A DNA stretch of 64,000 nucleotides, taken from positions 249,126 to 313,125 of the forward strand of contig NZ_KE150422.1 of assembly GCF_000411295.1 (NCBI RefSeq). The letters run 5' to 3'. The stretch comes from Paenisporosarcina sp. HGH0030 (lineage in GTDB: Bacteria; Bacillota; Bacilli; Bacillales_A; Planococcaceae). Both the position numbers and the translations under genes were made by a program. Positions 49,599 to 55,708 of the stretch are shown in pieces; the stretch's first letter is position 1; the number at the start of each line of letters is the position of its first letter. The notes under the pieces are model-generated. The model was not told where the DNA came from. It did not search any database and saw nothing but the letters and a program-made list of their open reading frames with translations.

Positions 49599-50828
49599 TT
49601 AAAATGCCCAATTACCTTTGCGGAAAATCGGTTCTCTTGTACCATCTTCGTATTCGCCATCAATGTCCATTTCTGCACTGCCTATCATGAAATCTTCATG
49701 AGTGATTGATGTATTTAATCCTAAAGCACGAAGCTGTGCTTCTTCTAAGTCCCGTGCACCCTCAACGCATGTTGGATACGCTTCGCCAATTGCTAAATGG
49801 TTAGAGGCATTTTCATCAAATAATGTGTTGTAGAACAAAATTCCAGAAGATGAAATCGGTGATTCATGAGGTACCAATGCCAACTCCCCTAAATAAGCAG
49901 AGCCTTCATCATGTTGAATGAGTTGCTGCAATAAGTCATTCCCTACTTCAGCCTCAGCCTTCACGATCTTTCCTTTTTCAAATGTTAACGTAAATTTGTC
50001 TATGATATTACCTTGATATACAAATGGTTTAGTATTACGGACATAGCCATTTACACCAAATTTTAATGGAGCAGTGTACACTTCTTCAGTCGGCATATTC
50101 GCAATAAACGCTGTTCTGTTAGGTGTTCTGCTGGCACCGGACATCCAAATATGTTTATCCGGCAATTCGATTATCAAATCCGTGCCTGGTGCTTTATAAA
50201 TAATTTTTTTGAAACGTTTATCATTTAAAGCTGTTGCACGGGCTTCCAAATCGCGGATATGTGTTTTCCATTGATCAACAGCAGTTCCATCTCCGATGCG
50301 TACGGTTTTAAAAATCGTTTCCCATAGCATGGATAACTGCTCTTCTTTTGGCAAATCCGGGAATACTTTGGCTGCCCACATCTCTGAAGGTATAGCTACA
50401 ATCGACCAAGCAATTTTATCTGACATGACGGAAGCGCGATATTTTTCCAATGCACGGCCAGCCACTTTTTGTTGATCGGAAATGCGTTTGGCAGGAATTC
50501 CAGCCAATAAATCAGGATCTTCTGCATCAATCCACAACAAAGCTCCCTGCTGATCGATCAATTCTTCACGCTGTGTAACCATCCATGCAGGAAATTCGTG
50601 CATAGCGGAATCTGGTGCCAACTCATAAAAAGCACGATTTATCGGTCCATCTGAGAAATTCACATGGACACGCTTTGCTCCAGCTTCATATGATTTCTTC
50701 ACAACCAAACGCGTAAAATCAAGGGTATCAGTCGTTGTATTTATCAATACATATTGACCAGGTTGGACATTGATTCCAACGCGAACTGCCAAATCTGCAT
50801 ATTCGGCTAGTTTCTCTTCAAATGTCAT
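49599..50828 (-). CDS. second M29 aminopeptidase
   Basis: A 409-residue paralogue of the M29 gene at 36337-37569. It keeps the metal ligand blocks (MPTEEVYTAP, LGELALVPHES, SNHLAIGEAYP and HEDFMIGSAEMDIDG). About half of the residues match the first copy by eye. The ATG overlaps the stop of the helicase gene by 4 bp (ATGA), so translation is linked to it. The pairing of an aminopeptidase with a helicase and an esterase has no clear logic beyond shared expression. Confidence 0.92.
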   Translation of the reverse strand: MTFEEKLAEYADLAVRVGINVQPGQYVLINTTTDTLDFTRLVVKKSYEAGAKRVHVNFSDGPINRAFYELAPDSAMHEFPAWMVTQREELIDQQGALLWIDAEDPDLLAGIPAKRISDQQKVAGRALEKYRASVMSDKIAWSIVAIPSEMWAAKVFPDLPKEEQLSMLWETIFKTVRIGDGTAVDQWKTHIRDLEARATALNDKRFKKIIYKAPGTDLIIELPDKHIWMSGASRTPNRTAFIANMPTEEVYTAPLKFGVNGYVRNTKPFVYQGNIIDKFTLTFEKGKIVKAEAEVGNDLLQQLIQHDEGSAYLGELALVPHESPISSSGILFYNTLFDENASNHLAIGEAYPTCVEGARDLEEAQLRALGLNTSITHEDFMIGSAEMDIDGEYEDGTREPIFRKGNWAF

Positions 50829-51976
50829 TTCTTTTTCCCCCTTTGTTGCACCGTTTTTGAGGACCCTTCAATCAATTTACCTTGATCCCATACCTTTTGA
50901 ACGGGTTTTGAAGGCAATTCTTTCGTCCATTTTTTAAAATTCTTTTCGTCTGTGTAGGTTAATAAAGACAATACTTCCCCGTCAGCACCAGCACGGCCTG
51001 TTCGACCTGAACGGTGCAGATAAGGTTCTATTGAGTGCGGTACATCGACGTGAATGACATGAGTCAATCCTTCAATGTCAAGACCTCGTGCTGCAATATC
51101 TGTAGCGATCAGTATGCTTACTTCGCCTTTACGGAAAGAAGCCAATGCCTGCTTACGTTCTTCTTTTTTCATATCTGAGTGCAAGGCAACTATTTTTGCT
51201 TCACGGAATTTCAGTTTCGTTTCTTTCATCAACAATTGATCTAAATTATTGACAAATGCTAGACCCCGTAAGCCTTCTACGTGCGCCAACCGTCGCAATA
51301 AATCGGTTTTATCTCGTTCTTCTACTTTGACGAATGAATGGACCACTTTTCCTTGTGCTGGCAATTCTTCATGACTAACTTGAATTCGAATCGGCTCTTT
51401 CATCATGCGGCTTGCAACAAGCTCAATTTCTTCTGTTATTGTTGCTGAAACGACCACAATCTGTCTGTCATGATTAGACCCATCGATAAGCGCTTTAATG
51501 ATACCACGATGCTCACGGGCCAATAGTTGATCTCCCTCATCTAAAACAATATGTCGTATATCGTGCAATTTAAGTTTCTTTGATTTCATTAATTCATTCA
51601 AACGCCCCGGTGTTCCTACAACAATTGTGGGCTTTTTCTTTAATTTTTCCAATTGACGAGCCATATTGGCTCCTCCGATTAGTTGAGCAACCGTAATATC
51701 GGTATCTGCAGTCCACTCTCGCAATACTTCAACGATTTGCATGGATAGTTCCTGTGAAGGGGCAACGATAAGTGCTTGTGTTTTTTGAATGGCACCATTC
51801 ACTTGATTCAATATCGGCAATACATACGCCAAAGTTTTCCCTGATCCTGTCGGCGATTGTGCCACCACATCTTTTCCTTCCAGCATGCTAGGGATTAATT
51901 GTGACTGAACAGGCATTTCATATTCAAATTTCCATTTATTTTGAAGTTCTGGTTTTAAGTTTTCGATAAATGTCAT
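50825..51976 (-). CDS. DEAD-box-like RNA helicase (YfmL type)
   Basis: A 383-residue two-domain RNA helicase close to the minimal core size. Motif I is SPTGSGKT (about 41-48), motif Ia APSQELS, motif Ib TPGRLNE, motif II VLDEGDQ (DEGD in place of DEAD), motif III SAT, and motif VI HRSGRTGRAG. A full Q motif is hard to see, and the N-terminus is short. Length and features fit B. subtilis YfmL, which assists ribosome assembly. The basic C-terminal tail (ends QRGKKK) may bind RNA. GGTGGAATAACCC precedes the ATG. Confidence 0.85.
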   Translation of the reverse strand: MTFIENLKPELQNKWKFEYEMPVQSQLIPSMLEGKDVVAQSPTGSGKTLAYVLPILNQVNGAIQKTQALIVAPSQELSMQIVEVLREWTADTDITVAQLIGGANMARQLEKLKKKPTIVVGTPGRLNELMKSKKLKLHDIRHIVLDEGDQLLAREHRGIIKALIDGSNHDRQIVVVSATITEEIELVASRMMKEPIRIQVSHEELPAQGKVVHSFVKVEERDKTDLLRRLAHVEGLRGLAFVNNLDQLLMKETKLKFREAKIVALHSDMKKEERKQALASFRKGEVSILIATDIAARGLDIEGLTHVIHVDVPHSIEPYLHRSGRTGRAGADGEVLSLLTYTDEKNFKKWTKELPSKPVQKVWDQGKLIEGSSKTVQQRGKKK

Positions 51977-52105
51977 GGGTTATTCCACCTTTATAAATAC
52001 ATGCTCCTAGTGTACCACAAATCACTATCTTCAACCTTTTACTGATATATTCAGTCGTTTTCCCCATAATAAAAACCCTGTCCCCATGAAGGAGACAGAG
52101 TATGT

Positions 52106-52807
52106 TTAATCATTCAATTCGTAGCCGCATGCAAGTATGGCACTTTCAGCTAATACCATCAGCGAATCAATATAAGTTTCATCAAGATTCAGTTCTTTTT
52201 TGACAATCGATAATTCTGTACAGCCCAATATCAAATGATCGCAACCCAATTCGTTCATTTGATTGATGATTTGCTGCCATTTTAGAAAATCGACAGGTTG
52301 CCCAGCTTTGACGTCATCATAAATAACTGACATGACCAGTTTCTGAGTTTCCTCATCGGGTACAACCGGTTGAATGCCACTCTCTTTACAAGCCAGTTGG
52401 TAAACAGAAGCCGTCAATGTACCTGTTGTTGCCAGAATTCCTACTTTTTTGGCACCAATTTGAGCTGCACGTTTTGCCGTTTCGTTAATCATGTGCAATA
52501 CGGGAATTTCCGCTCCTTGTTGAATCTCTTTATAAAAAGAGTGAGCAGTATTGCACGGAACCGCCAACACTTCCGCACCAATAGATTTCAGTTTTGTAGC
52601 ATCGGAAATCATCACTGGCACTGGGTTGGCTTTCGATCGATCTAAGATATATGTTGTACGGTCTGGTATGGCCGTATTATTGGTAATCACCATGTTGACA
52701 TGCTGTTGATCGGTTTTCGCTTTCGTGCGTTTGACAATCATTTCACCAAGCAACATAGTGGCCAGGGGACCTACCCCTCCAATGATGCCTAATATTTTCG
52801 TCTTCAT
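52106..52807 (-). CDS. aspartate/glutamate racemase family protein
   Basis: A 233-residue PLP-independent racemase. The two catalytic cysteines are C85 in VPCNTAHSF and C196 in LGCTELSIV, and GVGPLAT at the N-terminus is typical of aspartate racemases. It lies 3 bp after a D-aspartate ligase-like gene, so its likely task is to supply D-aspartate for the peptidoglycan cross-bridge. Enterococcus faecium has a comparable ligase-racemase pair. Glutamate racemase (MurI) is a different branch, so this is not the general MurI. Confidence 0.85.
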   Translation of the reverse strand: MKTKILGIIGGVGPLATMLLGEMIVKRTKAKTDQQHVNMVITNNTAIPDRTTYILDRSKANPVPVMISDATKLKSIGAEVLAVPCNTAHSFYKEIQQGAEIPVLHMINETAKRAAQIGAKKVGILATTGTLTASVYQLACKESGIQPVVPDEETQKLVMSVIYDDVKAGQPVDFLKWQQIINQMNELGCDHLILGCTELSIVKKELNLDETYIDSLMVLAESAILACGYELND

Positions 52808-52810
52808 AAC

Positions 52811-54031
52811 TTATGACAAACCTTTGTTATTAAAGTATTTTTTGTATTTACGATAGTAATTCAAATTATTGAGCGTCAATTTCGCCCAACGTTTCGGATT
52901 GAAATCCTCTTTGTAGAATAAGTGATTTGTCACTTTTCCTTCTGAAATTAACTCCCTGGCTTCTTCTTTCAACAGCTCGTTTTGTGCGTATTTGAATAAT
53001 ACACCTTTAGGAATGATCATCCATAAGTGCTTGTCCTTCGCATACGTCAATGTTTGTGGAATATTGAGCATATGATCGTCTGCTACGTATTTCATCAAAT
53101 TATGTCCACTTGCCGTTACATAGTAACTGCTGCGGCCATTTCGCAAGTTGATTTCAAACAGTTTATATTCACCATCACGCAAATCCAGCTTCATATCAAA
53201 ATTCGCGAAGCCTGTGTAGCCAATATCTTCTAGGAATACACGAACTCGGTCAAGTAATGCCTCATCAAATGTATTAATGATTGCCGCATAGCTCCCGATT
53301 CCTTCTGGAGAATGTTCTTCGAGAATTGGATTTCCAAGTGACATGAGCTTAACTTCGCCATCTTTCCCAACGTATGCGTTCAACACGCGCATGTAGGAAT
53401 CGTCTCCAGGAATAAATTCCTGAATCGTTAAATTATCTTTGTAAGATGAGCTATAGATCGCTTCGATAATGGCGTTTTTTTCTGCTTCATCGTGTGCGAC
53501 AAACACTTTTTTCTTTCCAGGGAACGAGCAATTCCAGTACGCTACAGAGTTTGATGCTTTAATGATGATTGGATACATAAAGTCAATTGCAAACGTATCC
53601 TTCGTGTCATATGTGCATAGTGACGTTTTAGGATAGGCAAAGCCGTATTGCTCACAAATATTATAGAAGTTCTCTTTAAGAACGATGCGATCCATTAATT
53701 TTTCATCAATATATGGAACCGCGAAATAAGGCAGCAATTGCTCCTTATTTTTAATGATTAATTTTGCATAATCATCGCCACATGCAAGGAGCAAAAGCTT
53801 TTTGTCTGTATGTTCACCCGCCACTTTAATAAGTGCCGGAACGAATACGTCCTGTTCATTTAAACGCGGGATAACCTGAAAATCCAGGATTTTGCTGTCT
53901 TGTGTTGCGGATAAATTCATACGTCCAAGGACTAGCGGCTTTAAACCATAGGCTTCGTGAAAAGCACGTGCCATTCCATAAGCATTCATATCTGATCCAA
54001 GCAATATAGGTAAAAATGAATTTGTTGTCAT
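52811..54031 (-). CDS. ATP-grasp carboxylate-amine ligase, D-aspartate ligase-like
   Basis: A 406-residue ATP-grasp enzyme. It resembles the E. faecium D-aspartate ligase Asl over its length: ILLGSDMNAYGMARAFHEAYG near the N-terminus, EFIPGDDSYMRVLNAYV (about 207-223), and GYTGFANFDMKLD followed by the metal-binding FEINLRNGRSSYYVT (about 299-313). Asl activates the beta-carboxyl of D-Asp and attaches it to the epsilon-amine of Lys in peptidoglycan precursors. The adjacent racemase supports D-Asp. The start at 54031 has only a weak GAGAG about 12 nt upstream. D-Glu cannot be excluded, since related Planococcaceae use it. Confidence 0.75.
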   Translation of the reverse strand: MTTNSFLPILLGSDMNAYGMARAFHEAYGLKPLVLGRMNLSATQDSKILDFQVIPRLNEQDVFVPALIKVAGEHTDKKLLLLACGDDYAKLIIKNKEQLLPYFAVPYIDEKLMDRIVLKENFYNICEQYGFAYPKTSLCTYDTKDTFAIDFMYPIIIKASNSVAYWNCSFPGKKKVFVAHDEAEKNAIIEAIYSSSYKDNLTIQEFIPGDDSYMRVLNAYVGKDGEVKLMSLGNPILEEHSPEGIGSYAAIINTFDEALLDRVRVFLEDIGYTGFANFDMKLDLRDGEYKLFEINLRNGRSSYYVTASGHNLMKYVADDHMLNIPQTLTYAKDKHLWMIIPKGVLFKYAQNELLKEEARELISEGKVTNHLFYKEDFNPKRWAKLTLNNLNYYRKYKKYFNNKGLS

Positions 54032-54119
54032 TGTGATATCAACTCTCTTTTCCAAAAAAACATAGTTTGTGTTTATATTGTAACGTGAATTACGGTTTTC
54101 TCCGAGCAATTACTTTTTG

Positions 54120-54437
54120 TTAGAATGCATATGCCATTGAAATGAGCAAAAGCTCACTCCACGCGAAGCCTGAAAAGGTAAGTCCAAAGGGTTCTCCTGC
54201 CTGCGAAAAATCCGCAGGAACAGTGATGAATGGTGTACCTGCGGCAGCACCGATACAGCACACATGATCTTGAGGAAAGACCACGGCATCAAGTTGGAAT
54301 CGTCCATCGACTTACTTATCGCAATTATACATGAAAACCAAATCCTCAGAAGTCATTTCATTACTAGATCCTACATATCAGCAATGGTTGCCTCATCCAG
54401 CCAATCCTTGATAAATTTTTTGCGCTTTGTTTGACTC
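54120..54437 (-). pseudogene. internally deleted amidase gene
   Basis: An intact start (GGGAGGAGTTCTC then ATG at 54437) leads into KFIKDWLDEATIADM, a stop, then in another frame NEMTSEDLVFMYN, which is the N-terminus of GatA-like amidases. Directly after, VDGRFQLDAVVFP and GTPFITVPADFSQAG, then GEPFGLTFSGFAWSE, are the C-terminus of the same family, ending at 54120. The catalytic Ser-Ser-Lys core (some 350 residues) is gone. One deletion plus a stop and a frameshift explain the remains. Confidence 0.75.
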
Positions 54438-54831: not shown

Positions 54832-55404
54832 CTAGTTTTTAAACCATTTTTTGAACGATTTAGGGAACCCTCTATACAAGACATAGCCAATTGCCGTCCC
54901 CAATGTATTCAGCCACAAATCGTCCACGTCACTGCTGCGCATTTGAGGTAACTGTAATATTTCTATGGCTAATGATAGGAGCAGTCCAGTCCCAATCACT
55001 TTCCAAGCGCGATTGAATTTCTGCCATAACAACGGAAGAAAAAAGCCAATCGGAAGAAACATCACAATATTACCAACGAAATTAATGAAAAAAGGTTGCC
55101 ATAAGTTCAAATATTTAATCGCGTTATATGTTTCAAACAAGACTCGAAAAAGTTCTATATTAATTGCTTGATGATCTCCGTTTATTAATTGCACTTCCCC
55201 GCCTTGATTGCTCACTGATGGCAAAATCGTCTGTGACAACAGCCCCGCCAGGAACATGAAAAAAAAGACAATCCCGCATTCTCGTAAGATATTCAATTGT
55301 TTATTATTGCGTTTTATTTGAATGAAACGAACCACTAGAATGATCGGTAAAATTAATACCATATAAAAGCCCATATCTTCTATATACTTTAGAATCGACT
55401 CCAT
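54832..55404 (-). CDS. VanZ family membrane protein
   Basis: A 190-residue membrane protein with about five hydrophobic segments. The VanZ core is NIVMFLPIGFFLPLLW (about 112-127) and the acidic turn SSDVDDLWLNTLGTAIGY (about 161-178). VanZ of Enterococcus lowers teicoplanin susceptibility by an unknown mechanism, but most chromosomal homologues have no glycopeptide link. Start taken at ATG 55404 after TTGGGTG. Confidence 0.85.
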   Translation of the reverse strand: MESILKYIEDMGFYMVLILPIILVVRFIQIKRNNKQLNILRECGIVFFFMFLAGLLSQTILPSVSNQGGEVQLINGDHQAINIELFRVLFETYNAIKYLNLWQPFFINFVGNIVMFLPIGFFLPLLWQKFNRAWKVIGTGLLLSLAIEILQLPQMRSSDVDDLWLNTLGTAIGYVLYRGFPKSFKKWFKN

Positions 55405-55708
55405 CACACACCCAATTTCTTCGCTGTAATACTCTTATTCTAAGCCTTTAAGGTTACTATTCAAAATGTATTTTAAGACAGTTAGCTTTTATTATTGATT
55501 ATTATTGAAATGAGGGAATTACCATCAACATCAGAGATAATAAAAGTGGAAATCCGCTCCGTTAAACGAGCAATCTCGTTTAACAAAGACTATTTTAAAA
55601 GAAACCCCCACTTATCACGTATTCATCCAGGTCGCGCTGGATATACTGTCAAATAACAAGTATTTTCCAATACGAGAATACAATTTGATGATAAGGGTGG
55701 AACAAAAT
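55405..55708. other. intergenic stretch with a perfect hairpin
   Basis: About 300 bp without a supported gene. GTTAAACGAG (55561-55570) and CTCGTTTAAC (55575-55584) form a perfect 10-bp stem with a four-base loop but no T run on either side, so it is not a simple terminator. Confidence 0.5.

Follow-up and report, generated by a model that had tools for sequence, protein, structure and literature searches.

The two adjoining genes analyzed here, which lie on the minus strand of a 64,000-nucleotide stretch of Paenisporosarcina sp. HGH0030 DNA (the window), very probably form an aslA-racD-like operon for a D-aspartate ligase and its racemase. Such a module is of a known type and would make the D-Asp cross-bridge of an A4alpha peptidoglycan. 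The gene order was observed directly. A clade A ATP-grasp ligase of 406 aa (52811 to 54031), which is a predicted D-aspartate ligase by its reading frame, fold, homology, and tree position, is followed, after a gap of 3 bp (GTT; 52808 to 52810), by a two-cysteine amino acid racemase of 233 aa (52106 to 52807), which is a predicted aspartate racemase by its profiles and its match to the solved structure 1jfl. The ligase reading frame is open from a TTG at 54109, and its ATG at 54031 gives the 406-aa product, with the stop codon at 52811 to 52813; the racemase starts with an ATG at 52807 and ends at 52106. The junction reads TAA GTT ATG, and together with the reading frames it confirmed the gene positions and the 3-bp spacing of the original prediction, which had also named the genes as a D-aspartate ligase and an aspartate racemase in one cross-bridge module. 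These identities and the operon are supported by the racemase profiles, the ATP-grasp model, and the linkage of the two genes beyond chance.

The window ligase matched no Pfam family at an E value of 0.001 and no PDB sequence, neither Pfam nor NCBIfam was found to have a family devoted to such ligases, and only weak ATP-grasp matches occurred among 33 members of the ligase family. With the predicted ligase model (63 sequences; pLDDT, 87; pTM, 0.85), a structure search retrieved 2pn1 (Z score, 25.3), followed by biotin carboxylases, purK, and PylC. According to the model, the fold is ATP-grasp, a shared fold that does not in itself show function. PylC (entries 4ffl, 4ffm, and 4ffr; Z scores of 19.5 to 19.9) has the same fold and couples D-ornithine to the lysine N-epsilon, as given in the title of entry 4ffm, a bond like the one proposed for the window ligase, but it is 10 to 11% identical to the window ligase and its acceptor is free lysine, which makes it an analogy in chemistry and not close kin.

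Closer kinship was found among lactic acid bacteria. The window ligase was 40% identical over 406 aa to a ligase of Latilactobacillus curvatus, and the window racemase was 42% identical to the racemase adjoining that ligase; the L. curvatus ligase was 32% identical to the clade B ligase of Paenisporosarcina indica. Kinship to D-Asp ligases was judged against named lactobacillus homologs (L. curvatus, L. crispatus, and L. fermentum) standing in for Aslfm of Enterococcus faecium, which reportedly adds D-Asp to L-Lys, the reaction expected of the window ligase. The wall of L. curvatus is of the Lys-D-Asp type, and its gene row is aspS-racemase-ligase; an asparagine synthase precedes the ligase in L. 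crispatus, and no racemase was seen beside the L. fermentum ligase in the stretch shown. Excerpts of one report describe AslA of L. lactis as an ATP-grasp enzyme that adds D-Asp to Lys and is encoded in one operon with racD (PMC4155827). The L. lactis AslA-RacD pair and the L. curvatus pair resemble the window pair in combining an ATP-grasp ligase with an aspartate racemase in one operon, whereas the racemase comes first in L. curvatus and the ligase comes first in the window, where the pair is known from its genes.

A full-length ligase of this family was present in all 36 sampled relatives from the genus and the family, as well as in the HGH0030 genome. Identity to the window ligase was 69 to 100% in clade A and 38 to 43% in clade B, with further copies at 35% and 52%; the clade B ligases, which are full-length homologs of the window ligase, came from Planococcus, Psychrobacillus, Sporosarcina, Tetzosporium, and others. 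In the ligase tree, the ligases of lactic acid bacteria joined clade A (support of 83) and clade B was set apart (support of 98), both placements carrying a long-branch warning. This tree was built by a quick method without L001 to L023 and L053 to L074 (removed by rule), L046, L047, L049, and L050 (matches of <300 aa), and L080, whose excised match contained a stop. At 41 positions, the two clades had different residues, each conserved in at least 95% of its clade. At these positions, seven sequences, comprising the three named lactobacilli and four other relatives, had the clade A state at 16 to 22 and the clade B state at 6 to 8, and the relatives L075 and L076 had the clade B state at 22 and the clade A state at 5.

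The pairing of ligase and racemase exceeded chance. In the survey of 36 relatives, a racemase lay directly downstream at 21 of 22 clade A loci and also at the 52% copy, L026, and at none of the 19 clade B or 35% loci. The best 80 named loci listed, which were ranked against a hybrid query, comprised 43 clade A and 37 clade B loci; a same-strand racemase was found 6 to 18 bases past the matched ligase end at 30 of these 43 clade A loci and at none of the 37 clade B loci. The 13 unlinked clade A loci among these best 80 were all from Lysinibacillus, and in the eight genomes searched of Lysinibacillus with an unlinked clade A ligase, the racemase was located next to another, divergent ligase copy, at a distance of about 30 bases. 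The Lysinibacillus genomes G287, G290, G293, and G296 each contained three ligases: a clade A ligase without a racemase, a divergent one with a racemase, and a third scoring about 470 bits.

Co-occurrence followed the same division. Across 51 genomes (those of 50 of the best 80 named loci listed and the HGH0030 genome), a racemase sharing at least 55% identity with that of the window was present in all 28 clade A genomes and in none of the 23 clade B-only genomes, in which the best match was 37%. In Paenisporosarcina and Kurthia, the racemase was present in 10 of 10 clade A genomes and in 0 of 5 clade B genomes (3 of the 15 also belong to the 51-genome set). A survey with TIGR00035 covered 48 of the 50 co-occurrence genomes and the HGH0030 genome; 13 of 21 clade B-only genomes had no racemase over the TIGR00035 cut-off, with only weaker MurI-like matches, and the other 8 had a distant TIGR00035 gene. 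The 13 genomes without a TIGR00035 racemase imply that the dedicated racemase is a mark of clade A, and the two surveys together imply that clade B can do without a racemase of the linked type, which would fit a D-Glu ligase fed by MurI.

Published wall types, as given in excerpts of the cited papers, agreed in part with the ligase clades. Paenisporosarcina spp. are reported there as L-Lys-D-Asp, A4alpha (PMC5786688), a genus type that fits both the window and its nearest relative among the named matches listed, Paenisporosarcina quisquiliarum SK 55 (ligase, 98% identical; racemase, 97%), both of which are clade A; the Lys-Asp reported for Lysinibacillus (PMC6971209, PMC4363355, PMC10257616) likewise fits its clade A ligases. 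The L-Orn-D-Glu reported for Tetzosporium hominis (PMC5786688) fits its clade B ligase, and the L-Lys-D-Glu reported at the genus level for Planococcus spp. (PMC5786688) fits Planococcus citreus, P. ruber, and P. salinus, whose ligases belong to clade B. Eight Kurthia genomes were divided into four of clade A and four of clade B; Kurthia massiliensis and K. senegalensis, reported as L-Lys-D-Glu by TLC and GC/MS (PMC3569394, PMC4148981), both appear to be clade B, which fits D-Glu, their genome identities having been deduced. Three cases did not fit these excerpts: Planococcus antioxidans Y74, reported as L-Lys-D-Glu (PMC7294307), has a clade A ligase with a racemase and no second ligase; Sporosarcina highlanderae, reported as L-Lys-L-Ala-D-Asp (PMC10628120), contains, besides a clade B ligase, a distant ATP-grasp gene and lacks any racemase scoring above the TIGR00035 cut-off; and Paenisporosarcina indica, of clade B, conflicts with the excerpted genus description as D-Asp. 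These misfits may reflect typing errors, a looser specificity, or a faulty reading of the gene type. At the strain level, the tally from these excerpts is a weak test, with one named fit (Tetzosporium), two fits by deduced identity (Kurthia), and two misfits; Solibacillus (reported as L-Lys-D-Glu) was left out of the comparison, no Solibacillus genome having been identified in the set.

These data bear on a reading in which the window ligase adds D-Glu to give an L-Lys-D-Glu wall, the racemase serving D-Glu supply or some other purpose. The report on P. antioxidans Y74 (excerpted), with its clade A ligase and racemase, speaks for this reading, which we nevertheless regard as improbable: the HGH0030 genome already contains a MurI-type racemase, the dedicated racemase marks clade A, as judged from the 13 of 21 clade B-only genomes, and the excerpted reports give Asp types for both Lysinibacillus and Paenisporosarcina. 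Somewhat less probable still is that the pair makes a D-Asp peptide on another acceptor, such as a spore component, a free peptide, or a lysine already extended by L-Ala or Gly, and not directly on the Lys side chain. Excerpts of two papers do report L-Lys-L-Ala-D-Asp and L-Lys-Gly-D-Glu bridges in Sporosarcina (PMC5786688, PMC10628120), and ATP-grasp relatives ligate many substrates; set against this are the homology to AslA-type genes and the presence of at least one family ligase in each of the 36 relatives sampled from the genus and the family, as expected for a core wall enzyme.

The racemase itself scored 237 bits with TIGR00035 (cut-off, 93.1) and 142 bits with PF01177. Its closest solved relative by sequence was the aspartate racemase 1jfl (E value of 2e-52), with which both of its cysteine blocks aligned; the two active-site cysteines are presumably catalytic. 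It also passed the cysteate-racemase model NF052483 (217 bits; cut-off, 190), yet an enzyme acting on cysteate or another amino acid, placed beside the ligase without pathway meaning, is highly unlikely, since TIGR00035 scored above NF052483 in all three racemases compared, linkage and co-occurrence were near perfect, and the ligase-linked racemase of L. curvatus reached 185 bits with NF052483, so that this model cannot decide between aspartate and cysteate. The HGH0030 genome contains two further PF01177 genes, one over the TIGR00035 cut-off and one MurI-like. The second TIGR00035-type racemase (G000:C2:421677-422366, outside the window) scored 248 bits and was 23% identical to the linked racemase, and the neighboring open reading frames inspected included no ligase of the same family.

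The lysine acceptor was considered through MurE. Two MurE proteins of HGH0030, encoded outside the window at G000:C1:1354986-1356359 and C1:1256348-1257709, were inspected, one carrying the motif DDPR and the other DNPR, which is the DAP motif of MurE; a third MurE-like gene is also present in the genome. According to an excerpted report, contacts to DAP come from the Asn and Arg residues of DNPR and those to lysine from the first Asp (PMC3829189). A DDPR-type MurE was found in 12 of 16 genomes (15 of the co-occurrence genomes and HGH0030) and in none of the inspected loci of Tetzosporium, Chryseomicrobium, and two Psychrobacillus. Chryseomicrobium and Psychrobacillus are ornithine types. For Tetzosporium, excerpts of PMC5786688 give an ornithine type. 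With NCBIfam, both tested HGH0030 MurE proteins exceeded the DAP-ligase cut-off, as did the MurE of L. sphaericus. In genera of this kind, the cell wall may contain Lys and the spore cortex DAP. The two MurE motifs of HGH0030 perhaps correspond to cell wall and spore cortex.

For the preferred D-aspartate ligase-racemase operon, we infer the substrate, the acceptor, and the wall type as follows. The racemase would convert L-Asp to D-Asp, which the ligase, by analogy with AslA, would activate with ATP as beta-aspartyl phosphate and would join to the epsilon-amino group of L-Lys in a soluble or lipid-linked pentapeptide precursor; transpeptidases would link D-Ala4 of one strand to the bridge D-Asp. 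Points against this reading are the D-Glu report for P. antioxidans Y74, the MurE DAP calls, the passing score with NF052483, and the long-branch warning of the tree. An A4alpha wall with a D-Asp or D-Glu bridge had originally been predicted; a cross-bridge role of the pair is supported and the evidence narrows the bridge at this locus toward D-Asp; the published walls agree only partly. With the window module, a long-established chemotaxonomic trait is tied to two genes.

The clade B ligases are candidates for the enzyme that installs the D-Glu bridge. We see about an even chance that the bridge in Planococcaceae is set by cassette exchange, clade A with the racemase giving D-Asp and clade B alone, fed by MurI, giving D-Glu. 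An rpoB tree was built for 30 chosen genomes, and on it the type of ligase switched at least five times, including within Planococcus, Paenisporosarcina, and Kurthia. The racemase followed the ligase type in five of five independent pairs (p = 0.0625), with racemase labels set equal to the ligase labels from the earlier surveys, Kurthia labels confirmed afterward, and any genome with both clades scored as A.

Two conserved neighbors outside the pathway, both assigned by Pfam and by neighborhood counts, lie downstream of the window pair on the same strand: a DEAD-box helicase (50825 to 51976) and an M29 aminopeptidase (49599 to 50828). Within the fetched flanks of the best 80 named loci listed, the helicase was downstream at 22 of 43 loci in clade A and 9 of 37 in clade B, and the aminopeptidase was downstream at 20 of 43 and 0 of 37. 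The clade B loci near the helicase were eight of the Sporosarcina type and one of Filibacter, with the ligase 1.6 to 3.7 kb upstream of the helicase. This common neighbor suggests, without proving it, that clades A and B were exchanged at one site. An upstream asparagine synthase was considered as a clade A marker and ruled out, occurring at 5 of the 43 clade A loci and also at 2 of the 37 clade B loci among the best 80 listed. Two large genomes titled Paenibacillus (L098 and L149) each had an asparagine synthase ahead of a clade B ligase; these ligases matched the clade B reference at 77% and 67% identity, and their presence could reflect transfer, contamination, or misnaming.

If the proposal is true, clade B would supply the ligase still lacking for D-Glu bridges in A4alpha and A4beta walls. 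Exchange, in places at a site beside the same helicase, would then explain why bridge type, a classical chemotaxonomic marker, jumps from one species to a near relative. No paper naming a D-Glu bridge ligase appeared in the literature searched, which covered a minority of subscription journals, and none is known to us. The comparison of the clades makes the question of which enzyme installs D-Glu bridges testable; should the clades differ in substrate, genome sequences could reveal the bridge type and allow questionable wall types in the literature to be examined again.

No Rfam family reached the gathering score between 48000 and 60000. Downstream of the racemase, a terminator-like hairpin (52075 to 52101, minus strand), recognized by consensus match only, may close the ligase-racemase unit; four such sites occurred in the scanned region, against 1.9 expected. 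In the gap upstream of the ligase (about 54131 to 54314, minus strand), one frame ends like an amidase C terminus by eye, possibly a gene remnant. Farther upstream of the operon, a gene on the minus strand (54832 to 55407) encodes a VanZ-like protein (PF04892; 87.6 bits), and a VanZ-like gene was upstream at 4 of the 43 clade A loci among the best 80 named loci listed.
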